From NCBI RefSeq assembly GCF_900116365.1, contig NZ_FPAG01000005.1, positions 1 through 64,000 on the forward strand: a stretch of DNA of 64,000 nt. The letters run 5' to 3'. The notes below the pieces were generated by a model. It made no database searches. It was not told the DNA's origin and saw nothing but the letters and a program-made list of their open reading frames with translations. Origin of the DNA: Zhouia amylolytica. GTDB taxonomy: Bacteria > Bacteroidota > Bacteroidia > Flavobacteriales > Flavobacteriaceae. Below, in pieces: positions 278 to 17,157 of the stretch (position 1 is the first letter of the stretch; every line of letters starts with the position of its first letter). A program made the translations under genes and the position numbers.

Positions 278-1835
278 TATCTTCAATCGTGAATGTAGTC
301 TCATACCATGATGTATTATTACAATTATCTGTAGCATTAAAACGAATATGACGTACTAGAGTACCTCCACAGTTATCAGTAGTGCTTAAGACTACCCATG
401 ACCAGGAAACATCATCATCACAAGCATCGGTGGCAGTAGCACCTCCATTAGACATTAACCATGCATTATAAGCAGCGGTATTTCCACTACCATCACATTC
501 AACAACTTCAGGACCACCACCGGTAATCACTGGTGGGATGGTATCATCAATGTTGATAAGTTGAGTGTCAAAAGCAGTGGCGCCACAATTATCTGTTATA
601 GTAAATGTTCTGGTAACAACAATCGGACAAGTGCCACTAATTTCATCTTTATAAGTAATTAGTGCTACATTATCTTCAACGAAAGAACCTCCTTCTGCTG
701 TATATTGAGCTTCTGTAATTGTTGCAGAAGTTGGGCTGTATGGTAACGCCGTTAAACCTCCGTTTGTAATGTCATCGGTGTCACAGCCTTCTACATCCTT
801 ATCAGTAGGTGCAGTAATAATCGGATCTGTGTTGTCTGAAACGTTGATTTCATAGGAGTTAGTATATTCACATCCTCTACTATCTGTAACAACTAAGTCA
901 TAAGTTCCAGCTTCTAGATCAATTAGGTCTTCATCTGATGAAGTAAACCCATTCGGTCCTGTCCAGTTATAAGAATATGTTTCGTCTCCACCTGAGGCGG
1001 TAATGCTAATACTTCCGTCAGCATTGCCAGAGCATAATACATTTGATTTGCTATCTAAAATTGCAGAAACTGAAGGATAAACAGTAACAGTGTATGTTTG
1101 GGTATCTACTAAACCATCAAAGTCCGTAATGGTTAAGGTTACGGTATAATCTCCTGTACTTCCATAGATATGAGACGGAGAATCTTCAATTGATGTATTT
1201 CCATCTCCAAAATTCCAACTATATGTATAATCTTCATCATTTTCACCTCCGGTAGTTAAATCTGTAAAGTCAACTTGCAAAGAATTACAAGGATTTATAT
1301 AGCTGAAATTTGCAACTAAAGGAGCATCGACCTCAAAACCAGGAACATCATTGAAACATTTACCTTTACTATTTGCAGGGCCACATGGATCTGCGGTTGT
1401 TTCCCAATTTAACAGTATATTGGTTACTTCTATTTTATCACCGCAGGTATAATCAATTTGAAATAGTTGAATTGAAGTATTGGTAGGTATTACCTGTTGA
1501 TTATAAAAGCAATCATTATAATTATTAATAGTTACTATATCATTAATCTCTAGGTTGAATTGGACGTTTAAAGAGTAACGATCTGCATTCGTGTTTTTTG
1601 TGAATGAGGCATACAAATAAGCTGATTGCGGTGTTCCAGGTGTGCAGGTTGTAGTAATAGGATTGCCGTTAATATCTCCAATATAGAAATTATTAACAGT
1701 AAAATCATTAGAATTACAACCACCTTGCGAGTACCCAATTCCAATATTCACCAACAGCATAAAGGCCAACAATAACAATTTGTTGACAACATTATACTTT
1801 GGCATTTTTGAGAGTAGAAATTTTTTCAAATCCAT
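1..1835 (-). CDS. Secreted PKD/HYR-repeat adhesin (5' part, runs off the window start)
   Basis: The reading frame is open from the ATG at 1835 to base 1, so the gene continues beyond the window. It begins with a hydrophobic export signal ending near GIGYSQ, then a domain of about 130 residues with several cysteines, a PKD domain (motif WNFGDGN), and at least three Ig-like HYR-type repeats of about 83 residues (motifs ITDNCG, ATDNCNN, LTDDCGN; repeated DPTFTVPA). Such proteins in Flavobacteriaceae are usually large cell-surface adhesins exported by the type IX system, with the sorting signal at the C-terminus, which is not visible here. A second in-frame ATG at 1805 would give a more compact signal peptide, so the exact start is uncertain. 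No particular ligand can be assigned. Confidence 0.85.
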   Translation of the reverse strand, partial: MDLKKFLLSKMPKYNVVNKLLLLAFMLLVNIGIGYSQGGCNSNDFTVNNFYIGDINGNPITTTCTPGTPQSAYLYASFTKNTNADRYSLNVQFNLEINDIVTINNYNDCFYNQQVIPTNTSIQLFQIDYTCGDKIEVTNILLNWETTADPCGPANSKGKCFNDVPGFEVDAPLVANFSYINPCNSLQVDFTDLTTGGENDEDYTYSWNFGDGNTSIEDSPSHIYGSTGDYTVTLTITDFDGLVDTQTYTVTVYPSVSAILDSKSNVLCSGNADGSISITASGGDETYSYNWTGPNGFTSSDEDLIDLEAGTYDLVVTDSRGCEYTNSYEINVSDNTDPIITAPTDKDVEGCDTDDITNGGLTALPYSPTSATITEAQYTAEGGSFVEDNVALITYKDEISGTCPIVVTRTFTITDNCGATAFDTQLINIDDTIPPVITGGGPEVVECDGSGNTAAYNAWLMSNGGATATDACDDDVSWSWVVLSTTDNCGGTLVRHIRFNATDNCNNTSWYETTFTIEDTTDPTFTVPADITIECDDDETDLSLTGDVTDEADNCDTTLDATYSDSVAAGACANASVITRTWTLTDDCGNTTEQDQIITVQDSTDPTFTVP

Positions 1836-2349
1836 CGTTTTTAGGTTATATCTAAAACATGAAAATGTAGGGTCGATACGGAGTTATCCCATACCAACAT
1901 CAAAGCCTTAGCTTATGCTACACTTCTTCTGCTTATCGTAAAATTTTCAGGTAAATAAAAAAGTTGCGGTATGATACCGTGTCGATCATCGTTCGTAGTC
2001 TTATGAACTACATCATCTGAATGGATGTTTGTACTCGAATAGTACAAGAGTTTAGAGTAAAAATGTTTCATGGGCCTAATAATTTTAAATTTCTTTGCCC
2101 ACAGCAACATGCTAGCTATCAATCAATGTTTGTATGGGTCACTAGCAAAAAATATTAAAGTGTTGTATCTTTAATACCAGGTTAAGTTAAGATGATTTGA
2201 ATTTGGGATTCAGGAATTATCCTAGCACAAAGGAAGATTTAAACGCCACTCAACACAAAAATAAATGTTAAAATACCTGCTTTTGTCGATAAGCGTACAC
2301 CCCAAAACACTTCATCGGTAAAAGCGGTTATTTTAACGACTCGAAAAAT
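1836..2349. other. Intergenic region between the adhesin and the sixA-like gene
   Basis: This 514-base divergent spacer must hold the promoters for the adhesin (minus) and the phosphatase gene (plus). A TACATTTT box on the minus strand near 1867-1874 resembles the -7 element TAnnTTTG, but no well-spaced TTG lies upstream. No RNA gene or convincing small gene was seen; a 69-codon minus frame here has no recognisable features. Confidence 0.4.
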
Positions 2350-2838
2350 ATGAAAAAGCTAGTTTTAATGCGTCATGGGAAATCATCGTGGGAATACGAT
2401 GTTGAAGATATCGAACGACCACTTAAAAAAAGAGGGATGAAAGACACGCAACGGGTGGCAAATCAATATGTTAAATTGGAAGGCCTTCCTCAGCATATTT
2501 TTTCAAGTCCGGCGAATCGTGCATTATCAACTTGCAAGCTTTTCATGGAAACTGCTGATGTGCCGAAAAAGAAACTTACCGTTGTCGATAAACTTTATGA
2601 TTTTGGAGGAAATTCGGTAATCAGTTATATCAAATCCCTCGATAAATCATTAGATCATATTATGATCTTTGGTCATAACCATGCTTTTACTTCCATCGCT
2701 AATATTTTTGGAAATCGCTTTATCGATAACCTACCCACCGCGGGCTTGGTGGTACTTAAATTTGATGTCGATTCCTGGAAGGATATCGATAAAGGAACCA
2801 CCGAACTCCTTATTATCCCTAAAAAACTTAGAAAATAA
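2350..2838 (+). CDS. sixA: SixA-like histidine phosphatase
   Basis: The 162-residue product belongs to the histidine phosphatase (phosphoglycerate mutase-like) superfamily. The phosphate-binding RHG motif is at residues 8-10, a conserved arginine lies in SSPANRA (R57), and a second histidine in the FGHNH motif (H109). Short single-domain members of this length resemble SixA, which removes phosphate from phosphohistidine, although the substrate here is unknown. The start is the ATG directly preceding MKKLVLMRHGK. The last 35 codons including the stop are found a second time at 3639-3743 with only synonymous differences, so this gene's 3' end looks like a recombination or integration target. 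It is likely monocistronic. Confidence 0.85.
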   Translation: MKKLVLMRHGKSSWEYDVEDIERPLKKRGMKDTQRVANQYVKLEGLPQHIFSSPANRALSTCKLFMETADVPKKKLTVVDKLYDFGGNSVISYIKSLDKSLDHIMIFGHNHAFTSIANIFGNRFIDNLPTAGLVVLKFDVDSWKDIDKGTTELLIIPKKLRK

Positions 2839-3638
2839 AAATAAGAATTGTTGGATGATGTGGGATAATATTTTTAGTCTATAACTTAGATCATTATTGC
2901 TTGTTTCGTTTTTTAAATCCTTTCAGAAGTAAATATGTTCTTTTTTTCATTGCCAAATGCTTTGCATTCATGAATACCATATAAAACAGTAATTATTACA
3001 TGAATAAAAAAAGAACCAAAAAAGTCTAGCCTTGTCTTTTCGACGACCTCATTGAAGTTCGAATGTTAAATTAAACGAACTCGCCCCGCTAGGGCGTGAC
3101 TCAAACAGCGTTTAATTCTTAACACATTTCTTACTTATGAGGTGCCCGCCTGCAAAGGACTATGGCGGGTTTGGGATATGGTTTACTCTTGAAACCTCAT
3201 AACAACGTAACATGATAACAGTGTAACTCCATAACACCATAACAACGTTAAGTAAAAAACTTTAGTTCAAAATTTTCACATTTAAAACTCTGCCTTTAGT
3301 TTGTGGTATATCTGTTTGATATATTATTGTATAGTTATTTTTCTAGATAGAATGGTATTCCCGTCGGCAGTATAAATGGATTTAATCCGTTAAAAATGGT
3401 TGAAGCCTTGGAGGCCATTTAGGATTAAATTCATGGTTTTGCGATAGCAGGGCCGAACGTCCCGAATATCGGAAAAAAGGTATTGTGTGCCTTTTTATTG
3501 AAGGAGCCAGCTGGCGTCTGGAAGAATGGTGCGATAGCAAAAATACCTCTCGACGGGCATCCTTTCTTTTGGTTCGTTTTCTTTGGATGAGCAAAGAAAA
3601 TGAATGAAGTGAAAAAGGGATTAAACTTTAATAATATT
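2839..3638. other. Non-coding 800-base segment between two copies of the sixA 3' end
   Basis: No believable gene was found. It contains a segment near 3003-3030 reading aaaaaagaaccaaaaaagt on the plus strand and, near 3560-3600, a similar one on the minus strand (aaaacgaaccaaaagaaagg), so the same short intergenic repeat seems to occur in opposite orientations. A hairpin with arms CCCGCC and GGCGGG lies at about 3148-3172. It is followed by a loose array of cataac-type units (about 3198-3247). The ten bases tgcgatagca occur at 3440-3449 and 3530-3539. An apparent 111-codon minus frame here is an accident of this repeat material. Confidence 0.5.
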
Positions 3639-3743
3639 CCCACCGCGGGCTTGGTAGTCCTGAAATTTGATGTCGATTCCTGGAAAGATATCGATAAAGG
3701 AACCACCGAACTCCTTATCATCCCTAAAAAGCTCAGAAAGTAG
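3639..3743 (+). pseudogene. Duplicated sixA 3' end (35 codons with stop)
   Basis: This stretch encodes the same residues as the last 34 codons of the gene at 2350-2838, from PTAGLV to KKLRK, followed by a stop (TAG instead of TAA). I count nine base differences in 105, all at third codon positions and all silent. There is no start codon or upstream homology; similarity begins abruptly at CCCACC. The pattern is not that of a decaying duplicate. It fits either an exchange with a diverged allele or the displaced gene end left when an element integrated and brought its own copy of the 3' end. Confidence 0.8.
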
Positions 3744-3770
3744 TTGTCAAAAACGGAATTAATCACTTTG

Positions 3771-3872
3771 ACGTCATTGCGAGGAAGGCAAGGCCTGACG
3801 AAGTAATCTTTTCAAATGGAGTAAGATCCTATTCAAGAGACTGCCACACTTTTGTCCAGACTCGCAGTGAAG
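3771..3872. repeat. Intergenic palindromic repeat, copy A
   Basis: It starts acgtcattgcgagg and ends agactcgcagtga, whose reverse complement resembles the start, so the element is a long imperfect palindrome. It has the form of the widespread bacterial hairpin repeat with arms like TCATTGCGAGG...GACGAAG. It shares gacgaagtaatcttttcaa (3797-3815) exactly with the copy at 14608-14700, in the same orientation, and is followed by the cataac array. Confidence 0.7.
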
Positions 3873-3879
3873 AAACAAC

Positions 3880-4000
3880 ATAACATCTTAACTCCATAAC
3901 TCCATAACCCCATAACTTCATAACATCTTAATGCTATAACCCCATAACTCCATAACCCCATAACTCCATAACCCCATAACCCCATAACACCATAACAACA
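3880..4000. repeat. Short tandem array of cataac-type units
   Basis: About a dozen units of roughly 9 bases (cataacccc, cataactcc, cataacatc) run in tandem up to the end of the AraC-type gene. Units vary in one to three bases. Shorter runs of the same unit occur at about 3198-3247 and 14701-14725, each time just after a hairpin-like element. No coding potential and no CRISPR-like repeat-spacer structure were seen. Confidence 0.8.
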
Positions 4001-4008
4001 TCACAGCA

Positions 4009-4884
4009 CTACTTATTCCTGTATGCACGAGGCGATAACCCGATATATTTTTTAAATACCCTCGAAAAATATAACTGATCCTGAAATCCGGTCTTAAGAC
4101 TAATTTCTTTTATGCTTAAATCGGTATAGCTAAGAAATTCACAGGCCTTCTGAATCTTCTTTAAATTAAAATAATACATTAACGAATGACCTGTAGCTTG
4201 TTTGAAGTAATTGAACAGGTGCGAACGGGAGTAATTAAATGCTTTCGCAATATCTTCGGCAGTTAAAGGCTGATCAATATTAGCCATTAAAAAATCAACA
4301 ATATCATTTCTTAAATTTTGTCCCTGTTCTAACGCCACACCTTTTATGTGATCGAAAAAGATAAAATCAGAAACAAACTTATAAGTAAGGATACATGCAT
4401 ACCTTAATTGTGCTTCAGAAAAATTAGTGTCTGCCAAACTAAATAGTTGTTCAAACAGATCAACGCTTTTCATTTGATAACCCACATGAAAAGCCTTATT
4501 GACTCTTTCTTCATGAGTACGTAACAAGGAATCTGAAGAAGAACCATTAAAATGAAGCCAGTAGATACTCCAGGGTTTTTTAATATCAGCTCCGTAACGA
4601 TGGGGGATGTTTTTAGGAATTATAAAATACATACCCGGATGGATCTCGTGATGGGTGTCATTTAACTCAATCCAACCACTACCTGAAGTACAATAAATAA
4701 AGATATGTTCTTCAGATCCCTTTTTGCGATATCTTTGGTGGTAATGAGCGTTTGGGTAATACCCCAAATCCCCAAAATGAAAGGGACTACTAACGGCATC
4801 CGTTTGCAACCATTTTTTAAGTTTTTTGGGCATGGCTACGATCTGTTGCCCAGGAAAACCTTCTTTTATAGTAATATTGTCCAT
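4009..4884 (-). CDS. AraC-family transcriptional regulator
   Basis: The 291-residue protein has an N-terminal cupin-type sensing domain (about 25-150, with HEIHPGMYFIIPKNIPHRYG) and a C-terminal AraC double helix-turn-helix (about 190-291, ending with SLKTGFQDQLYFSRVFKKYIG and LSPRAYR). AraC proteins of this form bind a sugar or sugar derivative through the cupin domain and activate nearby transport and degradation genes. It is transcribed away from the sugar porter gene, with 142 bases between them. That position and family make it the probable activator of the operon at 5027-14501; the inducer cannot be told from sequence. Confidence 0.93.
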   Translation of the reverse strand: MDNITIKEGFPGQQIVAMPKKLKKWLQTDAVSSPFHFGDLGYYPNAHYHQRYRKKGSEEHIFIYCTSGSGWIELNDTHHEIHPGMYFIIPKNIPHRYGADIKKPWSIYWLHFNGSSSDSLLRTHEERVNKAFHVGYQMKSVDLFEQLFSLADTNFSEAQLRYACILTYKFVSDFIFFDHIKGVALEQGQNLRNDIVDFLMANIDQPLTAEDIAKAFNYSRSHLFNYFKQATGHSLMYYFNLKKIQKACEFLSYTDLSIKEISLKTGFQDQLYFSRVFKKYIGLSPRAYRNK

Positions 4885-5026
4885 ATTTACCCTTTTCTTA
4901 TCTATATCAAAATTAACAATAAAACCTACTTTTATAATCTCAAAAAGGGATATAATAATTTTTTAGTTTTATGTGTCTCTTATTTTATAGCATATAAATA
5001 TCTATATTTTTAATAATATAAGTCTA
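4885..5026. promoter_or_regulatory. Divergent control region of the carbohydrate locus
   Basis: These 142 very AT-rich bases separate the AraC-type regulator from the porter operon and must contain both promoters and probably the regulator's operator. TATATTTTT near 5001-5010 resembles the -7 box for the plus direction. I could not identify a clear AraC direct repeat by eye. Confidence 0.5.
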
Positions 5027-6406
5027 ATGAACCAGTTTAAATACAATAATAGATACTTACTCTCCATCGTTTTTATTTCCGCCCTGGGCGGCTTTTTATT
5101 CGGTTATGATTGGGTTGTAATCGGAGGGGCCAAACCCTTTTATGAAGTATATTTTAATATAGTAGATTTTCCTTCGCTACAAGGATGGGGAATGAGTAGT
5201 GCCCTGGTAGGGTGTGTCTTTGGAGCAATGGTCTCCGGAGTTATTTCAGATCGATTGGGTAGAAAGAAACCTTTACAGATTGCTGCTGTTTTATTTCTGT
5301 TATCCGCATTAGGAACGGGATGGGCTCATAATTTTAATTTCTTTATAATTTACAGAATTATCGGGGGGGTGGGAATTGGTATTGCATCAACCCTTTCACC
5401 GTTATATATCGCAGAAGTTTCCCCGGCTAAATACAGAGGACGATTTGTAGCCATTAATCAACTTACGATCGTTATTGGGATCCTGGCGGCACAAATTGTA
5501 AACTGGATCATAGCGAAAAATGAAATCAGTGATCAGGCAATGCTTTGGAATCAGCAGACAGGCTGGAGAATTATGTTTTGGGCTGAACTGGTGCCTGCTA
5601 TGTTGTTTTTTGGCTTTCTTTTTATGGTGCCCGAAACTCCACGGTTTTTAGTAAAGTCCAACTTCACCGAAAAGGCTCTGAAAGTATTGAAAAAAATAGG
5701 AAATGAAGCCTATGCGGCTAAAGAACTGGCATTAATAAAAGGTACGCTGCAAACCGATCATAAATCTGTAGGTATCAAGAAAAAGGAACTCAAAAAACTC
5801 TACCCTATTCTTATTGTAGGCATCGTACTATCCGTATTCCAGCAATGGTGCGGAATTAATATCATCTTCAACTATGCCGATGAGATTTTTACCACCGCTG
5901 GCTATAGTGTAGGGGATATGCTATTTAATATTGTGATCACCGGTAGCATCAACCTGATTTTCACCTTTGTTGCCATGGGGACTGTAGATAGTTGGGGAAG
6001 AAGAAAACTAATGCTGTTTGGTGCCCTCGGATTGGCCGTTGTGTATGTTGCCTTGGGTGCAGCGTATTATTTTAATTTTCAAGGCTGGCCAATATTACTG
6101 TTAGTGCTCATCGCCATCGCTATCTATGCCATGACCCTGGCTCCGGTTACCTGGGTGGTCATTTCAGAAATTTTCCCTAACCGCATCAGGGGAGTAGCCA
6201 TGTCTGTAGCTACCTTTTCCCTGTGGACAGCTTCCTTTGTGTTAACCTATACCTTCCCGCTTTTAAACGCATTCCTCGGAGCCTCCGGAACCTTTTGGTG
6301 CTATAGTGGTATCTGTATCTTGGGATTTATATTCATCTATAAAAAATTACCGGATACAAAAGGAAAATCACTCGAAGAAATTGAAGAAGAATTGATAAAT
6401 AATTAA
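5027..6406 (+). CDS. Sugar porter family MFS transporter
   Basis: The 459-residue inner-membrane protein has the hallmarks of the sugar porter family: GGFLFGYDWVVIGGA at the first helix, DRLGRKK between helices 2 and 3, PETPRFLV after helix 6, QQWCGINII in helix 7, WGRRKL in the second half and PDTKGKSLEEIE at the C-terminus. Twelve membrane segments are expected. Such porters import monosaccharides by proton symport or facilitated diffusion. It is first in an operon with the sulfatase gene 8 bases downstream. In the absence of a SusC/SusD pair it is the only evident uptake system in this locus, so its substrate should be the sugar released by the GH2 enzyme and sulfatase (inference). Confidence 0.94.
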   Translation: MNQFKYNNRYLLSIVFISALGGFLFGYDWVVIGGAKPFYEVYFNIVDFPSLQGWGMSSALVGCVFGAMVSGVISDRLGRKKPLQIAAVLFLLSALGTGWAHNFNFFIIYRIIGGVGIGIASTLSPLYIAEVSPAKYRGRFVAINQLTIVIGILAAQIVNWIIAKNEISDQAMLWNQQTGWRIMFWAELVPAMLFFGFLFMVPETPRFLVKSNFTEKALKVLKKIGNEAYAAKELALIKGTLQTDHKSVGIKKKELKKLYPILIVGIVLSVFQQWCGINIIFNYADEIFTTAGYSVGDMLFNIVITGSINLIFTFVAMGTVDSWGRRKLMLFGALGLAVVYVALGAAYYFNFQGWPILLLVLIAIAIYAMTLAPVTWVVISEIFPNRIRGVAMSVATFSLWTASFVLTYTFPLLNAFLGASGTFWCYSGICILGFIFIYKKLPDTKGKSLEEIEEELINN

Positions 6407-6414
6407 AGAGACCT

Positions 6415-7875
6415 ATGTTTTTTAAACCGATAAAAATAGCCGTATTACTTAGTTTGACGTTCATGGCATGCAGTGAAAAAATGCCGGTAAAAGACGACCG
6501 TCCTAATATTCTTCTGATCATTACCGACGATCAGGGGTATGCAGATTATAGCGCCTATGATGGAGCTCCCGATGCCATAACCCCTCATATGGATCAAATT
6601 GCTCAAAAGGGGATCCGTTTTACCGATGGATACGCAACCGCACCTGTTTGTAATGCTTCGCGTCAGGGAATTATAACAGGAGCCTATCAGGAGCGATGGG
6701 GAACCTATTATTATGGCGGTAAGATCTTTTCTGAAAGTCAATATACCATCCCTGAATTATTAGGAAAGCAGGGGTATCGATGCGTTAAAATCGGAAAGAC
6801 ACATTATGCTGATATACTGGATAATAATGCTAAGATTAAAAATCCGCTGGAGTATCGTGAATTCCCATTGAACCATGGTTATGAAGAATTCTTAGGCTTC
6901 TGTGCACATCGTCACGATTATTTTAAACTAAAAGCCTCCGACGATTGGGTAGAAAACCCTGACGATGATAGGATGTCACAGTTCGGCCCGCTATGGAGAA
7001 ATAAAGAAAAGGAAGATTTTAACGGGTATACTACCGATATATTTGGAGACGAAGCCGTAAGGCAAATAGAAAAGAAAGACAAAAGACCTTTCTTTATGGA
7101 GCTATCCTTTAATGCGGTCCACCATCCAATTTATCAGGCGCCCGATAAGTATCTTAAGCAATTCGGCGTCGAAAAGTTTCCTGAATGGAATCCGGAAGAA
7201 GAATCGTTTTTAGATTACCATGCACGCACATGCTGGCGCATGGAAGAGGATCCTGATGGTCGTAAACGATACCTGGCGAATTTAGCCTGTTTAGATGATA
7301 ATATAGGGAAAGTACTGCAGGCGCTTGATAGAACGGGAAAACTTGAGAACACCCTGATATTTTTTATTTCCGATAATGGAGGTTCTCAAAATACCTATGC
7401 CGATAATGGTGCCTTAAACGGACATAAATATATTCTTAGGGAAGGAGGCATCCGTACCCCTTTTACCATGAGTTGGCCAAAAAGAATAAAAAGCAATCAG
7501 GTTATTAGTACGCCGGTTTCACACATGGATATTATGCCTACTTGTTTGGCAGCAGCTGGTTCGATAGCCACAGATAGCCTCATATTCGACGGGAAAAATC
7601 TTTTTGATTTAACGGAATCCAAACCTCAGGTATTTCACGAAACCCTGGTTTGGGATACCGGTAATGAATGGGCCATTCGCAAGGGTGATTGGAAATTACA
7701 TGTCGTAAAAAAGGACAATCATTTCAGAAGTATCCACCTCGATAAAGGAACCTACCTGTATAATTTAAAAAATGACCTTGGAGAGACCACCAATCTCGCA
7801 GCCGAGCACCCTGAAAAAATAAAGGAACTCACAGCCAATTATCAAGATTGGAAAGAAGAAATATCTCAAAAATAG
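6415..7875 (+). CDS. Sulfatase, lipoprotein-type
   Basis: The 486-residue protein starts with a lipoprotein signal (lipobox FMAC, C19), so it is probably anchored in the periplasm or at the cell surface. Metal-binding DD is at 38-39 (ITDDQG). The sulfatase signature CNASRQGIITG starts at C79, the residue that would be oxidised to formylglycine; it matches C-X-[PA]-S-R with alanine in the third place. Further family motifs are GKTHY and FISDNGG. It should remove sulfate esters from a carbohydrate. An anaerobic or aerobic formylglycine-generating enzyme is required and is not in this window. It lies 57 bases before the DUF5107 gene. Confidence 0.93.
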   Translation: MFFKPIKIAVLLSLTFMACSEKMPVKDDRPNILLIITDDQGYADYSAYDGAPDAITPHMDQIAQKGIRFTDGYATAPVCNASRQGIITGAYQERWGTYYYGGKIFSESQYTIPELLGKQGYRCVKIGKTHYADILDNNAKIKNPLEYREFPLNHGYEEFLGFCAHRHDYFKLKASDDWVENPDDDRMSQFGPLWRNKEKEDFNGYTTDIFGDEAVRQIEKKDKRPFFMELSFNAVHHPIYQAPDKYLKQFGVEKFPEWNPEEESFLDYHARTCWRMEEDPDGRKRYLANLACLDDNIGKVLQALDRTGKLENTLIFFISDNGGSQNTYADNGALNGHKYILREGGIRTPFTMSWPKRIKSNQVISTPVSHMDIMPTCLAAAGSIATDSLIFDGKNLFDLTESKPQVFHETLVWDTGNEWAIRKGDWKLHVVKKDNHFRSIHLDKGTYLYNLKNDLGETTNLAAEHPEKIKELTANYQDWKEEISQK

Positions 7876-7932
7876 TGCATAGTTGATCTTAAAATCAACC
7901 AAAGAATTTAATACCAATAGCTACAATTAATT

Positions 7933-10900
7933 ATGAGTAAGGTTAAAGCCTGGAAAGATGTTGTAATAATACCTACCTATGAAGTAGGGGTGCCAGAAAA
8001 ATATCCGGTTTTTTTAGATAAACGAGTATATCAAGCCAGTAGTGGTGTAGTATACCCAAATCCGGTGATCGAATCTATAAGTGACGAAAAAACCTTCAAA
8101 GAGTGGGAGGTGGTGTTTATCGAAAATGATTATGTGAAAATAATGATCATTCCAGCCCTTGGAGGAAGAATTCAAATGGCTTATGATAAAGTAAGAGAAC
8201 GCCATTTTGTATATTATAATCAAGTGATTAAGCCTGCATTAGTAGGCTTAACGGGGCCGTGGATTTCAGGAGGTATTGAGTTTAACTGGCCTCAACACCA
8301 CCGTCCGAGCACTTATGATCCCACCGACTTTAATATAGAAGAAAATAAAGATGGCAGTATCACCGTATGGGTAAGTGAACTGGAACGCATGTTCAGAACC
8401 AAAGGGATGGCTGGTTTTACCTTATACCCCGATAAAGCATACCTGGAAATAAAAGCACAGCTGTATAATCGCACGCCTCATCCGCAAACCTTTTTATGGT
8501 GGGCCAACCCGGCAGTTGCAGTAAACGATCATTACCAGTCAGTATTTCCACCCGATGTGCATGCCGTTTTTGACCATGGTAAACGTGATGTTTCAGAATT
8601 TCCTATTGCTAAAGGGGAATACTATAAGGTGGATTATGCGCCTGGTACAGACATTTCAAAATATAAAAATATCCCGGTACCCACGTCTTACATGGCTATT
8701 ACCTCCAAGTACGATTTTGTGGGTGGGTACGAGAATGATACCAAAGGAGGTTTATTACATATAGCCGATCACCACATATCACCAGGAAAAAAACAGTGGA
8801 CCTGGGGAAATGGCGATTTCGGACATGCATGGGATAGGAACCTAACCGATGAAGACGGCCCCTATATCGAGCTTATGTGCGGTGTTTATACCGATAATCA
8901 ACCCGATTTTTCATGGTTACATCCCTATGAAGAAAAAAGCTTTAAGCAATACTTCATGCCATATTACAATGTGGGAGTTGTTAAAAATGCCACCAAAGAA
9001 GCGCTGCTGAATCTGGAGCATAAGGATTCAGAAGCCTTGCTGAAAATTCATGTGACTTCCGTATATAAGAATAGTAGCGTTATCCTGCGCAATTCTGAAT
9101 CTATACTGTTTGAAGAAACCTTAGAATTGAGTCCGCAAAATGGCTTTGAAAAAAGTATCCCCCTGGGTAATTCAGCCTATGAAACACTTACGGCTACCTT
9201 ATATGATGCAAAAGGAAAAGTATTGGTTTCATGGTCGCCGGAGGTGCATACAAATGTTGATATTCCCGAACCGGCCAAAGCAGCGAAACAACCTGAAGAA
9301 ATTAAGAGCATCGAGCAGTTATACTTACGTGGATTACACCTCGAACAATACCGCCATGCTACTTATGACCCAACTAAGTATTACCTCGAAGCCCTTGCTC
9401 GTGAACCGGGAGATGTACGATGTAATAATGCCATGGGGTTATGGAATCTTAAACACGCCAAATTCAAAGAAGCATTAACGTATTTCGACAAGGCCATAGA
9501 AACCTTAACCGAGCGCAACCCAAATCCATACGATGGGGAACCTTATTTTAATAAAGGACTCGCACTAAAATTCCTGGGAAAAAAGGAAGAGGCTTATGCA
9601 GCCTTTTTTAAAGCCTGTTGGAATGCCGCCTGGCAAGATGCAGGATATTTTAACCTGGCGCAAATAGATTGTTCAAATGGCAATCTTGAAAAGGCGCTGG
9701 AATTGGTTGGTAAAGCACTTATTAAAAATTGGCACAACCACAAAGCAAGGCATTTAAAAGTACTTCTGTTAAGAAAAATGGGGCAAAACGAAGAAGCCAT
9801 GCAGTTAGTCAATGAATCCCTGGCGATCGACAACTTTAATTTTGGCATACACTATGAGAAATACTTGTTAAGTGGGAAGCAGGAAGACTTGATAACCTTC
9901 AAAGAATTAATACGCGATAATCCACATAATTATATCGAGTATTCTTTAGACTACGCTCAGGCAGGACAGTTTGAAGAAGCTATAGCTCTTTTGGATGTTC
10001 ACGTCGACGGAAAAGATGCCGTTTACCCTATGATAGCCTATTTTTCAGGATGGTACCTTGAACAGCAAGGACAATTAGAACAAGCATTAAAACAGTATCA
10101 AAAAGCATCCATGATGCCTGGGGATTATTGTTTTCCAAATCGTTTAGAAGAAGTTGTTGTGTTGCAATCGGCCATACGACAAAATACATCCGATGCTCAG
10201 GCTCCTTATTATCTGGGGAATTTCTGGTATGCATTTAAACAATATAAAGAGGCTCAAAGTTGTTGGGAGCTTTCCGTTAAATTAAGCGATGATAATCCAA
10301 TTTGTCATCGAAACCTGGCTTTGTTGTATTTTAATAAAACCGACCAGAGGGACTTGGCAAGAACCCATTTAGAACGTGCCTTCGAATTAGATAATCGGGA
10401 AGCCAGACTGTTAATGGAGTTGGATCAATTGTATAAAAAATTAAATGTACCGGTAAAGGATCGTCTGCAACTGTTATCTTCTAATTTCGAATTAACTGAA
10501 ATGAGAGACGATTTATACCTGGAGTGGATTACCTTAAATAATTTCAAAGGAGATTATGAGAAGGCTTTTGCTGATATTAAATCGCGTCAATTTCATCCAT
10601 GGGAAGGAGGAGAAGGTAAAGTGCCTTTTCAGCACATTACCATACACGTTGAACTCGCTAAGGAGTCCATAAAGCGGGGAGGATACGATGAGGCTGTATC
10701 TTTCCTTGAGGCAGCTCAGGTATATCCCTATAACCTTGGCGAAGGAAAACTGTTCGGAGCTCAGGAGAATGATATTTTTTATTGGCTGGGATGTGCCTAT
10801 GAGAAATTGGGAGAACTAACCAAAGCTGAACAATACTGGACTAAAGCATCAAAAGGATTAAGTGACCCGAGTCCGGCGATGTTCTATAACGATCAACAGC

Positions 10901-11256
10901 CCGATAAGATTTTTTATCAAGGCCTGGCATTATTAAAATTAGGTGATAAACAGGAGGCAAACCGCAGATTTAAGAATCTGATTTCGTATGGTGAAATGCA
11001 TATGGATGATGATGTTAAATTAGACTATTTTGCCATCTCTCTTCCAGACCTTTTAATTTGGGAAGAGGACCTGAGTAAACGAAATCAAATTCATTGTTAC
11101 TATTTGATCGGGTTAGGTCAATTAGGACTGGGTAATTATAAACTGGCTGAAGCAGCATTAAATAAGGCTTTAAACTTCGACCGTTATCATATGCCAGCCC
11201 ATATCCATCTTAATATGGTTCACGATAATATTCAAAAAACAGACGTAGAAAAATAA
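7933..11256 (+). CDS. DUF5107 and TPR-repeat protein
   Basis: The 1107-residue protein begins with a DUF5107 region (about 1-360), with features of the galactose mutarotase-like fold such as GGRIQMAYDK, PALVGLTGPWISGGIEFNWPQ-type segments, and many conserved aromatic and histidine residues. From about 460 to the end it is a series of tetratricopeptide repeats (for example ALTYFDKAIETL, ALKQYQKASMMP, AEAALNKALNFD). No signal peptide is visible, so it is predicted to be cytoplasmic. Proteins with this architecture are common in polysaccharide-use loci of Bacteroidota, which suggests a carbohydrate-processing role, but I know of no firmly established reaction and assign none. The GH2 gene follows after 11 bases. 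Confidence 0.88.
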   Translation: MSKVKAWKDVVIIPTYEVGVPEKYPVFLDKRVYQASSGVVYPNPVIESISDEKTFKEWEVVFIENDYVKIMIIPALGGRIQMAYDKVRERHFVYYNQVIKPALVGLTGPWISGGIEFNWPQHHRPSTYDPTDFNIEENKDGSITVWVSELERMFRTKGMAGFTLYPDKAYLEIKAQLYNRTPHPQTFLWWANPAVAVNDHYQSVFPPDVHAVFDHGKRDVSEFPIAKGEYYKVDYAPGTDISKYKNIPVPTSYMAITSKYDFVGGYENDTKGGLLHIADHHISPGKKQWTWGNGDFGHAWDRNLTDEDGPYIELMCGVYTDNQPDFSWLHPYEEKSFKQYFMPYYNVGVVKNATKEALLNLEHKDSEALLKIHVTSVYKNSSVILRNSESILFEETLELSPQNGFEKSIPLGNSAYETLTATLYDAKGKVLVSWSPEVHTNVDIPEPAKAAKQPEEIKSIEQLYLRGLHLEQYRHATYDPTKYYLEALAREPGDVRCNNAMGLWNLKHAKFKEALTYFDKAIETLTERNPNPYDGEPYFNKGLALKFLGKKEEAYAAFFKACWNAAWQDAGYFNLAQIDCSNGNLEKALELVGKALIKNWHNHKARHLKVLLLRKMGQNEEAMQLVNESLAIDNFNFGIHYEKYLLSGKQEDLITFKELIRDNPHNYIEYSLDYAQAGQFEEAIALLDVHVDGKDAVYPMIAYFSGWYLEQQGQLEQALKQYQKASMMPGDYCFPNRLEEVVVLQSAIRQNTSDAQAPYYLGNFWYAFKQYKEAQSCWELSVKLSDDNPICHRNLALLYFNKTDQRDLARTHLERAFELDNREARLLMELDQLYKKLNVPVKDRLQLLSSNFELTEMRDDLYLEWITLNNFKGDYEKAFADIKSRQFHPWEGGEGKVPFQHITIHVELAKESIKRGGYDEAVSFLEAAQVYPYNLGEGKLFGAQENDIFYWLGCAYEKLGELTKAEQYWTKASKGLSDPSPAMFYNDQQPDKIFYQGLALLKLGDKQEANRRFKNLISYGEMHMDDDVKLDYFAISLPDLLIWEEDLSKRNQIHCYYLIGLGQLGLGNYKLAEAALNKALNFDRYHMPAHIHLNMVHDNIQKTDVEK

Positions 11257-11267
11257 TTAGATTAAGT

Positions 11268-14200
11268 ATGTTTAAAAACATTGTTTTATTCACAGTATTA
11301 GTATGCAATCTGACATTTCTGCAAGCTCAGGAAAATGTGCTCGACCTTTCAGGTGACTGGCATGTCAGCCTGAGTGAAGAGCGGCCGGAGATTGAAAATA
11401 CAACCGATTATAAAAAGGAAGGGATAATCAGATTGCCTTCCTCATTAACACAACAAGGCTATGGTCTGAAAACGAAAGGGTCCGATTTTGGAGTGCTGAC
11501 TCCAACCCATAAATATTTGGGTGTAGCCACCTTCGAACGAAGCATCGAGATTCCCAAAGATTGGAAGAACAAGGAGTTTCAGATTTTTTTAGAACGGGTG
11601 CTTTGGCAGTCGAAAGTATATGTGGATGGAGTGGAGTTAAGCACTCAGGATGCCCTTGGGACACCGCATATTCATAACATAGGAATACTTACTCCAGGGA
11701 AACACCAACTTAAAATAGAGGTTAATAATGATATGATCCATAATATCGGAGATAAAGGACATGCCTATGGTGCCTATACTCAAAGCATCTGGAATGGAAT
11801 TGTAGGAAGAATGGAACTCATGGCACACGACCCTACTCATATCACTGCACTCCGCACATATCCCTTGCTGGAGAGTGATCAGTTACGTGTAGAATTGGAT
11901 ATCACGGCAGCCAGAAAAGAAAAAGGGAAACTGTTTATAGATATCAGTGAGTTAGGCCATAAAGATGTGGTTAAATCTTTAGAGGTATCCTATAAACTGG
12001 AAGAAGGAAGCCATAAAAAAGAAGTGGTGCTTGATTTAAATGGAGCACTTAAAAAATGGAATGAATTTGACCCCACGGTCTATATACTAAATGCCTGCCT
12101 TAAAACAAAAAGGTTTGATGACAGCCGGGAAACTGAATTTGGATACCTTAAAATAGGCCATAACGGAACCAATATTCTTATTAATGATACTCCGGTTTTT
12201 TTACGAGGAAACCTCGATTGTGTACACTTTCCGCAAACAGGCTATCCGTCAGCCAAAGTAGAAGATTGGGAGCGCATATTTAAAATATATAAAGATTACG
12301 GACTGAATCATGCAAGGTTTCATTCCTGGTGTCCGCCGGAAGTAGCTTTTAAAGCAGCCAACCGGGTAGGGATTTATTTGCAGGCAGAGGCCTCAATTTG
12401 GATAGATTGGTGGATGAGTGTGGATAATACAGACCGCGGACGTCCTGAAATGAATACCAAAGGGTTCCCACAAGGACTGGGGAAAGACCCGAAACGCGAT
12501 CAGTTTGTAATCGAAGAAATGAATCGCGTAGTCGATTATTATGGAAACCACCCGTCCTTTACCATGTTTTGTATTGGTAATGAGTTGGGTAACTCCGATT
12601 TTGATGTGATGAAAACGTGGGTGAAGGATTTGAAAGAAAAAGATAACCGACGACTGTATTCAGTTTCAACAGCCAGAAAGATTACGGAGGTAGACGACTA
12701 TATGGCTACCCATTACATACAAAAAGTAGGTAGAACAAGAGGGTTGAATGGACCTCATACGGATTGGGATTTTGAGAAAGTATATAGCCAAATGGATATT
12801 CCTATCATTGCTCATGAAATAGGACAATGGCCGGTATATCCGTCCTGGAGTGAAATAGATACTTATAAAGGTGTTTTGAAGGCCAGAAACTTTCAAGAGT
12901 TTAAGGCAATGGCTGAAAAAAATGGAATAGCCGATCAGGCAGATGATTTTAAAATGGCTTCCGGAGCCCTGAATCAAATCATGTATAAATATGAAACGGA
13001 ATCATTCTTAAGAACAAAAAGCTGCGCAGGAGTACAGTTGTTGAGCATGCAGGATTATCAGGGACAAGGCGAAGCTTTAATCGGTTGGTTGGATGCGAAT
13101 TGGAATAGTAAGGGGATAACAACACCTCAAAAGTTCAAAGAACATTTCAATGAAACGGTACCCTTGCTGCGCATGAAAAAGATGGTGTGGACCTCTAATG
13201 AAACCTTTGAAGGCGCTATTCAATTATCGCACTATGGACAGTTTCCAATAAAAGAAGGACACCTTGTTGCTAATATAACAACAGCATCGGGCAAGCTTCT
13301 GAAAACCAAAGAGTGGAAGTTAGAAGACCTTGAAATAGGAAGCCTTACAGATGTCGGTAACCTATCTATGTCTTTAAAAAATATAAACAAACCACAACAA
13401 CTTAACATTGCAGTAAGTCTGAAAGGAACAGCGTTTAAAAATGAATGGGATATATGGGTGTATCCTCCTGAGGTACCGGAAGCAGACCATAAAGAAGTTA
13501 TTGTTTCACAAATGCTGGATGATGAAACTCTGGAAGCCCTGAAGAAAGGAAAGGACGTTTTGTTAATTGCCAATAATTTGGGTACCGACGCTACCAGTGT
13601 CGATCTGTCTTTCTATCCGCTTTACTGGTCTTTAACTTTTTTCCCCGGACAAGGTAAAACAAGTATTGGTCTGCTATTGAAAGATAAGCACCCTGCATTT
13701 AAGGAATTTGTGACCGATTTTCATAGTGATTGGCAGTGGGAAACCATTATGAATGGATCTAAAGGATTTATCCTGAATGATACTCCAAAAACATATAAAC
13801 CTATAGCACAGGTAGTGGACGATTTTCATAGAAACAATAAAGAAGGTGCTATTTTTGAATTTAAAGTAGGGAAAGGTAATTTACTGGTATGTGGATTTAA
13901 TGTAGCAAACAGCGAATTACCGGTGGCAAAACAACTTTTATATAGCCTCAAATCTTATGTTGCATCGGACGACTTTAAGCCAGCAACCGCTATTGAAGAA
14001 ATTGCATTGAAAGAACTATTTCCTTTTATCCCGGAAGCAGATGATGTAGCTGTAAAGGGAGCATTCAAGAATGCTGTTCTTCAGGTTAATGCAGCCGAAA
14101 ATTTAAAGGCTTTGAATGAAAGTGTAGCCTGGGAAATAGTTAACGATGAGATTCTGGTTCAAAAGGAGGTGTCTTATAATGTAAAAGCCGATGGATCCTG

Positions 14201-14501
14201 GAAAGATGATGAAGGAACAGCCTGGCACGGAAAAGAAATTACAGTTACCTTAAAATGCCCTGAAGGGATGTTAGGTAGTTTTTATGTGCTGTTTGATGAT
14301 TGGAATAAGCAGGGCCGTGAAGGGATCCTGGAGTTTGAAGGCCGTAAAGTACAGTTAGGAGCTCATAGTGCTAATGGAGGTCAATGGGTAAAGTTTCATG
14401 TAATGAGAGAAGATAGTAATGATGGAAAACTGATTTTAAAGGCAAAAGCAACCAAAAGTAACAATCTGATGATTCGTGAAATAGTACTGGAAAAGGAATA
14501 A
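11268..14501 (+). CDS. Glycoside hydrolase family 2 enzyme, exported
   Basis: The 1077-residue protein has a signal peptide (cleavage probably after FLQAQ). A GH2 sugar-binding jelly roll follows (about 25-190, LDLSGDWHVSL and VYVDGVELS), then an immunoglobulin-like domain and a TIM barrel (about 300-620). The likely acid/base is E439 in CIGNELG and the likely nucleophile E517 in HEIGQWPVYP. A long C-terminal region contains a segment (about 720-930) with TDFHSDWQW and VDDFHR motifs seen in other Bacteroidota GH2 proteins, then a beta-rich end. GH2 enzymes cut beta-galactosides, beta-glucuronides, beta-mannosides and related bonds; specificity cannot be read from this sequence. It is the last gene of the porter-sulfatase-DUF5107-GH2 operon. 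Confidence 0.9.
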   Translation: MFKNIVLFTVLVCNLTFLQAQENVLDLSGDWHVSLSEERPEIENTTDYKKEGIIRLPSSLTQQGYGLKTKGSDFGVLTPTHKYLGVATFERSIEIPKDWKNKEFQIFLERVLWQSKVYVDGVELSTQDALGTPHIHNIGILTPGKHQLKIEVNNDMIHNIGDKGHAYGAYTQSIWNGIVGRMELMAHDPTHITALRTYPLLESDQLRVELDITAARKEKGKLFIDISELGHKDVVKSLEVSYKLEEGSHKKEVVLDLNGALKKWNEFDPTVYILNACLKTKRFDDSRETEFGYLKIGHNGTNILINDTPVFLRGNLDCVHFPQTGYPSAKVEDWERIFKIYKDYGLNHARFHSWCPPEVAFKAANRVGIYLQAEASIWIDWWMSVDNTDRGRPEMNTKGFPQGLGKDPKRDQFVIEEMNRVVDYYGNHPSFTMFCIGNELGNSDFDVMKTWVKDLKEKDNRRLYSVSTARKITEVDDYMATHYIQKVGRTRGLNGPHTDWDFEKVYSQMDIPIIAHEIGQWPVYPSWSEIDTYKGVLKARNFQEFKAMAEKNGIADQADDFKMASGALNQIMYKYETESFLRTKSCAGVQLLSMQDYQGQGEALIGWLDANWNSKGITTPQKFKEHFNETVPLLRMKKMVWTSNETFEGAIQLSHYGQFPIKEGHLVANITTASGKLLKTKEWKLEDLEIGSLTDVGNLSMSLKNINKPQQLNIAVSLKGTAFKNEWDIWVYPPEVPEADHKEVIVSQMLDDETLEALKKGKDVLLIANNLGTDATSVDLSFYPLYWSLTFFPGQGKTSIGLLLKDKHPAFKEFVTDFHSDWQWETIMNGSKGFILNDTPKTYKPIAQVVDDFHRNNKEGAIFEFKVGKGNLLVCGFNVANSELPVAKQLLYSLKSYVASDDFKPATAIEEIALKELFPFIPEADDVAVKGAFKNAVLQVNAAENLKALNESVAWEIVNDEILVQKEVSYNVKADGSWKDDEGTAWHGKEITVTLKCPEGMLGSFYVLFDDWNKQGREGILEFEGRKVQLGAHSANGGQWVKFHVMREDSNDGKLILKAKATKSNNLMIREIVLEKE

Positions 14502-14502
14502 T

Positions 14503-14518
14503 AGTATTTCGAAATACT
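14503..14518. repeat. Perfect 16-base palindrome after the GH2 gene
   Basis: AGTATTTCGAAATACT starts two bases after the stop codon of the GH2 gene and is a perfect dyad. It could be a transcript 3' structure element or a protein-binding site. Confidence 0.5.
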
Positions 14519-14534
14519 TTATGATGGATAACAT

Positions 14535-14572
14535 GCCCGTGCAAAACTATGTTTCGCACGGGTTTTGTTTTT
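14535..14572 (+). terminator. Rho-independent terminator of the carbohydrate operon
   Basis: The arms CCCGTGC (14536-14542) and GCACGGG (14556-14562) form a GC-rich stem followed by ttttgttttt. It lies 34 bases after the GH2 stop codon and in the expected orientation. Confidence 0.85.
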
Positions 14573-14607
14573 ATGTAAGATTAGAGCATCATTCGTAAGG
14601 TTATAAT

Positions 14608-14725
14608 TGGAGGACAAAGCCCGACGAAGTAATCTTTTCAATTGGAACACGAACCTATACGAGAGACTGCTATGCTTTTACAAAGCTCCTACCGACGAAA
14701 CATCATAACATCTTAACCCCATAAC
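14608..14725. repeat. Intergenic repeat, copy B, with short cataac run
   Basis: It resembles copy A at 3771-3872 over about 115 bases in the same orientation: gacgaagtaatcttttcaa (14623-14641) is identical, then cctat, gagactgc, cttttac and finally gaaacatcataacatcttaac. The two copies bracket the AraC-porter-sulfatase-DUF5107-GH2 locus. Confidence 0.75.
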
Positions 14726-14740
14726 AGCACAACAAATAAA

Positions 14741-15151
14741 TCACTCCCCCTCCAAATCTGAAATACGTTTTTCTAAAAACAACTTTAACTCTTTTAAGGT
14801 TGCATTACTTTCTTTCAATGCTTCATTAGCCTCTTTTAATGCTGCAATCCGTTCCTCTAAAACAGTTATTTTTTCCCGCAATTGATATTCAGACGAATCT
14901 TCAGCAATAGGATGTAGATCATCCGGAGTTTGAGGTTTAAACATGGGACCTTTCCCCATAAGAATCCACGAAGGATTGTAATTGGGATAATTTTCAACCA
15001 GCGCTGCGAGCCATTTGGTTTGAATGTCAGTTTTATTTTTCAGAGCTCTGGAAAGCACTCCCTTACTCGCACCTATCTGCTTCTCAAGCGCAGAGATCGT
15101 AATCCCTTCGTTTTGAGCAATCAAACCGAAAACTGTTAAAATTGTACTCAT
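14741..15151 (-). CDS. XRE-like helix-turn-helix regulator with C-terminal coiled coil
   Basis: The 136-residue protein has a predicted helix-turn-helix (about 1-65: ISALEKQIGASKGVLSRAL) resembling XRE/phage-repressor type DNA-binding domains found in Bacteroidota, and the WILMGKGPM segment typical of that group. Residues 90-136 form a clear coiled coil with heptad leucines and repeated ALKE/TLKE units, likely used for oligomerisation. It is transcribed away from the HEPN gene at 15656, which makes it a candidate regulator of that gene or of itself. The ATG start is preceded by no strong ribosome-binding site, as usual in this phylum. Confidence 0.8.
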   Translation of the reverse strand: MSTILTVFGLIAQNEGITISALEKQIGASKGVLSRALKNKTDIQTKWLAALVENYPNYNPSWILMGKGPMFKPQTPDDLHPIAEDSSEYQLREKITVLEERIAALKEANEALKESNATLKELKLFLEKRISDLEGE

Positions 15152-15655
15152 ACAGTGAAATTAATCAACATTTACCCATTATAGGTGAAAATTATCATTT
15201 ATATTTGCTTATAAATACATCAATAAAACGATAATAAATCTACAAAAAAATAAAGAAATAGCAGTGGTATTTGTGAAGATAAAGATTACAATATGTGCTA
15301 TAGCTTAAAATAGTAGAAGGAAATAATATAAGATAATGGTTATGGGAATGACGTTTTAGCATTTATTCATTCCGGTTTTTAATAATTCTAAGCCAATCCT
15401 TTTGGCATTTGTCCCATAACAGACGATTACATTTTTTATGGTATCCGGCCATACAACGATTCACATCTTATTAAATAAGGTTTACGATCCTTAATGTGTT
15501 TCATTGAGTAATACATCTGTATAGTTGCTCATCTAAACCTCTTAAAAATCAGGGTATAAATTTATTTCGTGATCGTAACCTATGGTATAAAAGCACCCCG
15601 AAATAGAGGGGTCGCATGCTTAAAAATAAATAGAATCATAAATAAAAAGGAAACC
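15152..15655. other. Divergent intergenic region between the XRE and HEPN genes
   Basis: These 504 bases contain a TATATTTG box on the plus strand at 15200-15207 without a matching TTG at the usual distance, and a small hairpin CCCC-gaaataga-GGGG at about 15596-15611. I see no gene. A GTG at 15569 would extend the HEPN gene by 29 codons, but the extension looks non-coding. Confidence 0.45.
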
Positions 15656-16789
15656 ATGGAAAATCAAATCGTCAGCAAAATCACCGGTCTACTCGAGGTA
15701 CAATGCATTTATCTATCTGAATTAATAATAAGAAAGGCCCGCCGGCCTTTGTACGTGATTATCCTTGCGGGAAACTGCTCCTCCTTAACCCGGGAACTGG
15801 CCACTATGGTGGCTAAAATATTTCAGGAAGGAACCACAGCTTTATATCGAATATTCTCTTTGGAATATGCCAGTCAGCAACTAAAAGATCACAATCTCTT
15901 TTTTATGGAGCATTGTAGGTCCGAATGTCTTAAATTTTCCAGTTCTGGAGAAAAGTCAGGGATTGTAGCATATGCAATGACCCAATATGCTTTTGAGAAC
16001 CAATTGAAAAGGCATCAAGGAGAAAGTAATAAAATTGAAGCTTTTAAAAGTGGTGCCGAATTTTTTCGGAAAAATCAAAACCATGCGCAGGCTGCTTTTA
16101 TGTATCATCAGTATATAGAACTTTGGTATCGCTATTTGGCCCTTTCCTTTATGGGCAAGGAGCGTAAAAGTCATAGTATAAAAGAACTTCAGGTTTATTT
16201 GAAAGCCTTTATACCTGAATTAGGAACTCTTTTTAATAGTGATACGGAAGAAGATCAGATAGTGTTAAAGCTCTTAGATGAAGCTTATGTTTCCGTACGC
16301 TATAAGAGTAATTATCACGTAAGCCAAGATCAGTTAATAGCCATCCAACGCAAGGCCAATACCTTACATGAGTTGGCCAATGAATTATTTCAGGAGGGCC
16401 AGGACAGGTGTCTTGGTTTTCTCGAAAATCAAGTTCATGAATCAGATTTTAAATCAAGGAATGTATTGGAAGATCGAAACTTTTTGAAAACGATTAAATC
16501 CTTGGTTAAAGAACATTATCACATGCTTGATCCCCATCCACATCGCAATGAATTATTTCGGTTCCGGGTAAATACAAAAGGTTACCTCGAGACTTCCTTT
16601 ATGATCGCCAGTTTACTCAAGGTTTGTGCCTTGGCTTTAGACGGGCAAGACGATACGAATATCATGGTAAATAATGCAGGAGGTGATGTCAAAGAGGTGC
16701 TGACCCTCATATTGAATCTCATGCCTTACGAAGAAATGAGATTTCTCGACAAGATGCGATCCGTAATAAAGGAGGAGAAAGTTAAATAA
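15656..16789 (+). CDS. HEPN-domain protein with N-terminal nucleotidyltransferase-like region
   Basis: I start the protein at the ATG at 15656, preceded by aaaagga, giving 377 residues; a GTG at 15569 is less likely. Residues about 20-100 (LYVIILAGNCSSLTRELATM) look like a divergent nucleotidyltransferase-like domain. About 130-265 is a HEPN domain of the Bacteroidota type: AAFMYHQYIELWYRYLAL, HSIKELQVYL and LLDEAYVSVRYKSNYHVS. Residues about 294-377 form an extra module that is also found alone in the next gene. HEPN proteins paired with nucleotidyltransferase domains are often nucleases or their partners in toxin-antitoxin or defence systems, but the canonical R-X4-6-H motif is not clear here, so activity is uncertain. 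The small gene at 16828 follows after 38 bases. Confidence 0.75.
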   Translation: MENQIVSKITGLLEVQCIYLSELIIRKARRPLYVIILAGNCSSLTRELATMVAKIFQEGTTALYRIFSLEYASQQLKDHNLFFMEHCRSECLKFSSSGEKSGIVAYAMTQYAFENQLKRHQGESNKIEAFKSGAEFFRKNQNHAQAAFMYHQYIELWYRYLALSFMGKERKSHSIKELQVYLKAFIPELGTLFNSDTEEDQIVLKLLDEAYVSVRYKSNYHVSQDQLIAIQRKANTLHELANELFQEGQDRCLGFLENQVHESDFKSRNVLEDRNFLKTIKSLVKEHYHMLDPHPHRNELFRFRVNTKGYLETSFMIASLLKVCALALDGQDDTNIMVNNAGGDVKEVLTLILNLMPYEEMRFLDKMRSVIKEEKVK

Positions 16790-16827
16790 TATTAAAAAAT
16801 TGCAATAATAATATAAATAGTCATTTT

Positions 16828-17157
16828 ATGAATACGAACGAAGAACAGCTGATTAAGGACTTAAAGCGGCATGCCAAAGACCATACTCCTACCTTGCAAC
16901 CCCATTCCTTTTTTAATGACCGATTTCAGGTAACCTGTTTTTATGTGAAAAACCATGAGGACTTGCTATTATCCGTTAGATCATTATTATACCTCTGTAA
17001 ACGAATCTTGGATCCGGAAGATGATATGGAGAAAGCACCAGAATGGATCGAAAAGGATTATATACGCCAGGCACTATCCATAGCCAATCGTTTAATGCCC
17101 TTGGGAGATGAAGCCTTATTGGATCATATAAATAGTTTTTATCAAAAAGAAAATTAA
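16828..17157 (+). CDS. Small protein resembling the C-terminal module of the upstream HEPN protein
   Basis: The 109-residue protein is unnamed. Its residues about 25-105 can be aligned by eye with residues 294-377 of the preceding gene: FRFRVNTKGY against DRFQVTCFYV, MIASLLKVCALALDGQDD against SVRSLLYLCKRILDPEDD, and VLTLILNLMPYEE against ALSIANRLMPLGD, each ending in an acidic/lysine tail. It is predicted to be helical and soluble. The shared module suggests that the small protein may bind the HEPN protein or compete for its partner (inference). The gene lies 38 bases downstream on the same strand, so co-transcription is likely. Confidence 0.7.
   Translation: MNTNEEQLIKDLKRHAKDHTPTLQPHSFFNDRFQVTCFYVKNHEDLLLSVRSLLYLCKRILDPEDDMEKAPEWIEKDYIRQALSIANRLMPLGDEALLDHINSFYQKEN

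Follow-up and report, generated by a model that had tools for sequence, protein, structure and literature searches.

A silently diverged second 3′ end of sixA in a rearranged sixA-ppk1 interval of Zhouia amylolytica, possibly left at a recombination junction

The window, that is, the whole stretch of 64,000 nucleotides analysed here, contains an intact sixA-like gene whose 3′ end occurs a second time downstream, ahead of two gene blocks (termed M2 and M1), ppk1, and a ppx-like gene. The copy of the 3′ end within the gene is termed copy A and the downstream one copy B.

2350-2838, plus strand: sixA-like phosphohistidine phosphatase gene, intact, 162 aa (Pfam His_Phos_1, E 6.7e-9)
2734-2838, plus strand: copy A, comprising the final 34 sixA codons and the stop (pairwise alignment)
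2839-3638: interval between copies A and B, 591 of whose 800 bases match dispersed repeats of the source genome or the congener
3008-3172: repeat with two counterparts following the congener's ppx-like gene (locus L070, 17424-17587 and 17802-17967), at about 91.5% identity
3193-3250, plus strand: 8-bp tandem array of the AACNNNAT type, about 7 units
3346-3608, plus strand: mosaic dispersed repeat carrying an extra segment of about 80 bases past 3449, with GCGATAGCA at its boundaries
3639-3743, plus strand: copy B, an orphan sixA 3′ end with nine silent differences from copy A
3783-3908 and 14609-14733: a repeat common to both places, 77% identical over 126 bases, flanking M2 on either side
3874-4005, plus strand: 8-bp tandem array of the AACNNNAT kind, about 16 units
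4009-14501: block M2, encoding an AraC regulator (minus strand), a sugar transporter, a sulfatase, a DUF5107/TPR protein and a GH2-like protein (Pfam; gene order identical in the congener)
near 14699-14739: partial array of the AACNNNAT kind, the third of the arrays that surround M2
14741-17157: block M1, encoding a repressor-like HTH protein (minus strand), a HEPN-domain protein and a 109-aa protein (Pfam, PHROG)
17706-19814, plus strand: ppk1 (Pfam; synteny)
19912-20820, plus strand: a gene that we take to be ppx-like (synteny), which with ppk1 makes up the usual downstream partners of sixA

The SixA protein matches the histidine phosphatase branch 1 domain and carries the RHG motif (MRHGKSSW), presumably the catalytic motif. 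It is 77% identical to SixA of the congener (G001), a distant species and the only one in the genus comparison. A search of genome contigs for relatives returned nothing with the window protein alone as the query and 568 confirmed relatives with an alignment as the query. Among the best 80 of the 568, ppk1 lies no more than 150 bases from the end of sixA in 73; in six of the seven exceptions a ppx-like gene comes next and no ppk1 is within reach, and in the seventh two other genes separate sixA from ppk1. Inspection of these seven by eye, from ORF starts only, recognised no integrase. As in this Flavobacteriaceae neighbourhood, sixA, ppk1, and the ppx-like gene follow one another in that order here, whereas the two genomes of the genus have M1 and M2 lying between sixA and ppk1. 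At the other edge of the locus, the contig opens within a repetitive gene that resembles one for a surface protein (1-1835 of the window). Contig C15 ends in a gene of similar appearance (285007-286467, in locus L158), and by eye the two contigs may adjoin across a repeat gap.

Copies A and B align gaplessly over 105 bases (34 codons and the stop) at a spacing of 905 bases, and all nine differences between them are silent third-position changes, including that of the stop from TAA to TAG, with no amino-acid change. The silent-only duplication described in the first-pass annotation is therefore borne out. The two copies are the sole matches to the sixA end in the whole 3.89-Mb genome; no homology between them extends beyond the stop codon (anchored score 0), and sixA similarity upstream of copy B's first repeated codon is not significant (p ~0.29 against random placements in the interval). 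If single mutations are placed randomly on copy A, with transitions weighted twofold, 25.7% would be silent, giving nine silent changes out of nine a chance of about 5e-6. With the stop excluded, 23.5 silent sites carry eight differences and 78.5 replacement sites carry none, corresponding to a dS of about 0.45 and a dN of 0. The further claim that copy B is not a neutrally decaying duplicate thus holds as well. Judged from these substitution counts, nearly all of the divergence arose inside working sixA genes, and the lineage of copy B was probably a related one. Replacement divergence has a 95% upper bound of 0.038 per site, about 8% of dS, from which we infer that copy B was orphaned recently; it is now probably without function.

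Codon identity between copies A and B (25/33) exceeds the 42-58% found for genes compared with the congener, which places the source lineage of copy B much nearer than the congener. The divergence of copy B hence carries both features looked for at a recombination junction, the mark of coding constraint and a size smaller than the congener distance. Copy A shares 15 of 26 silent codons with the congener and copy B 13 of 26, and codon usage over the nine differing codons favours copy A by a summed log ratio of 4.6; both of these sequence-based measures are too weak to tell which copy is native.

The second end appears to be confined to the source genome. When 397 family genomes, drawn from a larger group, were searched with a profile of the final 34 residues, 341 gave a match; two copies were found solely in the source genome and one in each of the others, with a few first-look candidates left unscored in two genomes. 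None of these 340 others thus has a second sixA end, in a search that would miss ends sharing far fewer than 34 codons. Full-length SixA was matched in 140 of 149 family genomes searched, with two matches in the source genome alone.

The interval between the copies consists mostly of repeats. The 591 matching bases include a match of 3561-3630 to contig C8 that is marginal on alignment, and the other 209 bases have no repeat match. To the left of copy B, up to 30 bases from it, the DNA is dispersed repeat and not element genes, and three tested ORFs in or overlapping the interval have no Pfam or PHROG match. These repeats also occur elsewhere in the source genome or the congener, and the proposal of an integrated element surviving as these 800 bases finds no support. 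The identity of the 3008-3172 repeat to its congener copies stands against 68-79% for most other matching DNA of the region between the two genomes, which suggests recent movement or function. The 3346-3608 repeat is an intergenic mosaic with GCGATAGCA at the joins between its modules and an inverted repeat at its end, and has copies on contigs C6, C10, and C13 (loci L008-L026); its extra segment of about 80 bases is absent from the repeat copies that can be aligned across 3449. A search of 1800-4100 for RNA families gave one microRNA match, far under the gathering score, and no credible Rfam match for 3346-3608; no tRNA gene was found in the 64-kb window. Among plasmid records, 3340-3640 matched one, over 68 query bases of the hairpin part.

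Downstream of copy B, the order of genes differs from that in the congener. The congener order is sixA-M1-M2-ppk1, whereas the order in the window is sixA-(copy B)-M2-M1-ppk1 (4009-17157, corresponding to 620-13746 of L070); the congener counterparts of the M1 HTH and HEPN genes thus lie across M2, on its other side. Because the two blocks stand in opposite order in the two genomes, copy B sits at an arrangement breakpoint; its distance to M2 is 265 bases. Within M2, the GH2 gene has a match in 122 of 299 family genomes, and in the two best matches outside the genus GH2 and sixA are on different contigs. Within M1, the HTH protein matches a transcriptional regulator in PHROG, the 109-aa protein has no Pfam or PHROG match, and none of the three proteins has a PADLOC match. 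The HEPN-domain protein is 45% identical to that of the congener, compared with 91% for ppk1.

An array follows each sixA end in the window, 355 bases past copy A and 130 bases past copy B, and the congener sixA is followed by an array-like stretch. Strict four-unit arrays occur in the 64-kb window exclusively in the region of 3193-3250 and 3874-4005. The exact three-unit pattern has 3 occurrences in the source genome; the congener has 12, of which 9 fall at 2,818,202-2,890,984, within 74 kb downstream of its sixA. Among 97 other relatives, two have one three-unit match each, with only A or T at the variable positions. In addition, looser array-like stretches occupy the gaps flanking M1 and M2 in the congener, and other gaps of the region contain more arrays. 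By association alone, the arrays are candidates for exchange points; they may be bystanders, as several other congener gaps have them.

The account that we favour, with about even confidence, derives copy B from the sixA allele of a closely related lineage: the 3′ end of that allele, cut short, would have stayed behind at a recombination junction in the rearranged sixA-ppk1 stretch, beside the catabolic block M2. DNA carrying a sixA end, an 8-bp array, and M2 would have been joined downstream of the resident sixA; the join would have spared the resident gene and removed most of the incoming one. Homology may have guided the joining on one side and illegitimate recombination that on the other, or a duplicated region may have collapsed by deletion. 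Such a capture is the simplest reading because a recently orphaned, silently diverged gene end lies at a breakpoint of block order, close to M2 and beside an array. The mechanism, the donor lineage, and the arrival of M2 with copy B are what we infer; the composition of M2 is ordinary and thus gives no sign of such an arrival. Among the genomes searched, none has sixA directly followed by M2 or carries the donor allele. All told, we class the duplicated end as an ordinary scar of recombination within an interval that has been rearranged.

Two other explanations persist because silent sites leave the native copy undecided and the comparison includes no close relative. The first, which was also the proposal of the first-pass annotation, is a scar like that of prophage e14, in which an element integrated site-specifically into the 3′ end of sixA, supplied copy A, displaced the native end as copy B, and was later deleted to 800 bases. 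The geometry is the expected one, with an intact target gene, a displaced duplicate reaching from within the coding region to the stop, and silent differences only. Identical runs of 17, 23, and 32 bases between the copies could house a crossover core, although as such they are indistinguishable from conserved coding sequence. A nearby recombinase and element-specific DNA were looked for and not found. The genome has seven tyrosine recombinase matches, of which the nearest on the contig (PF00589) starts at 75,647, 72 kb away rather than beside sixA, and its sole resolvase match (PF00239) lies at position 150,741 of the contig; no recombinase match falls within 64 kb of sixA on the downstream side, the contig starting 2.3 kb upstream of the gene. 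The repeat content of the interval and the single sixA end of the other family genomes also speak against such a scar. A strain with the site empty or occupied did not turn up, the nearest genome compared being the distant congener.

Viral contigs likewise yielded no second sixA end. A full-length SixA profile found no relative there, in a search that is weak for short ends, its search patterns lying upstream of the duplicated end. With an end-only profile, 113 stretches fit a pattern and none was confirmed, a weak test in which the 34-residue query needed E 1e-3; a degenerate DNA pattern of the sixA end gave no match. In excerpts of PMC3516476 and PMC3032704, the words SixA and attachment site are used in unrelated contexts. 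Together, the family and viral searches and the recombinase positions speak against recurrent use of sixA as an attachment site, and less so against one past event whose element has been lost; the idea of sixA as a protein-coding attachment site is accordingly not supported. Of the gene-end replacement originally proposed, the divergence within functional sixA, probably in a related lineage, stands on the silent-only changes, while the integration scar is not supported, with no recombinase match beside sixA on the known side and an interval made up mostly of dispersed repeats. Overall, an e14-like event at this locus seems unlikely.

A similarly improbable explanation is an old paralogue, a complete tandem second sixA that stayed under selection until its silent sites had diverged and was then lost except for its end. 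The lack of any replacement change at the observed dS would suit two working genes, but double matches are absent both from the 340 other genomes with a sixA end and from the 139 others with full-length SixA, and no significant sixA remains were detected upstream of copy B. Decidedly doubtful is the idea that the sixA-ppk1 interval is a shuffling locus, at which genus-specific 8-bp arrays would exchange blocks (M1, M2, and the congener's variable downstream region) and copy B would record one exchange with another lineage. An assembly chimera of two strains is very unlikely: the divergence of the copies is of between-strain size and dispersed repeats flank copy B, but the assembly is listed as 99.99% complete and 0.11% contaminated in 17 contigs, and a chimera alone would not cut the second gene short within its coding sequence. 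Translation of copy B, from an ATG at 3600 that opens a 47-aa frame running to 3743 with the SixA C-terminus at its end, can be practically dismissed, as its first 13 codons do not resemble sixA significantly, the frame has no Pfam or PHROG match, a second end is confined to the source genome, and the piece is without the N-terminal RHG region.

If copy B does mark a recombination junction, a silent-only duplicate of a gene end can mimic a phage attachment scar without a phage, and the replacement-to-silent ratio combined with synteny can separate decay from a recent capture. Flavobacterial exchange of catabolic blocks could then be studied at the array-rich sixA-ppk1 interval. The known system closest in appearance is e14 in Escherichia coli, where, according to PMC6379469, the prophage supplies the end of icd and displaces a 163-bp end; one conservative Asp/Glu replacement is mentioned there. 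As in that description, sixA is intact and a second, displaced copy of its end lies downstream. In contrast to e14, the sixA locus has no prophage or nearby integrase, its interval is mostly dispersed repeats, and the second end is seen in none of the 340 other matching genomes. Truncated gene copies also occur at junctions of homology-facilitated illegitimate recombination or of collapsed duplications. Like such junctions, the sixA locus pairs an intact gene with a truncated, related allele and adjoins a block that differs in order; it differs from them in that the donor and a one-step origin are, for copy B, reconstructed rather than observed.
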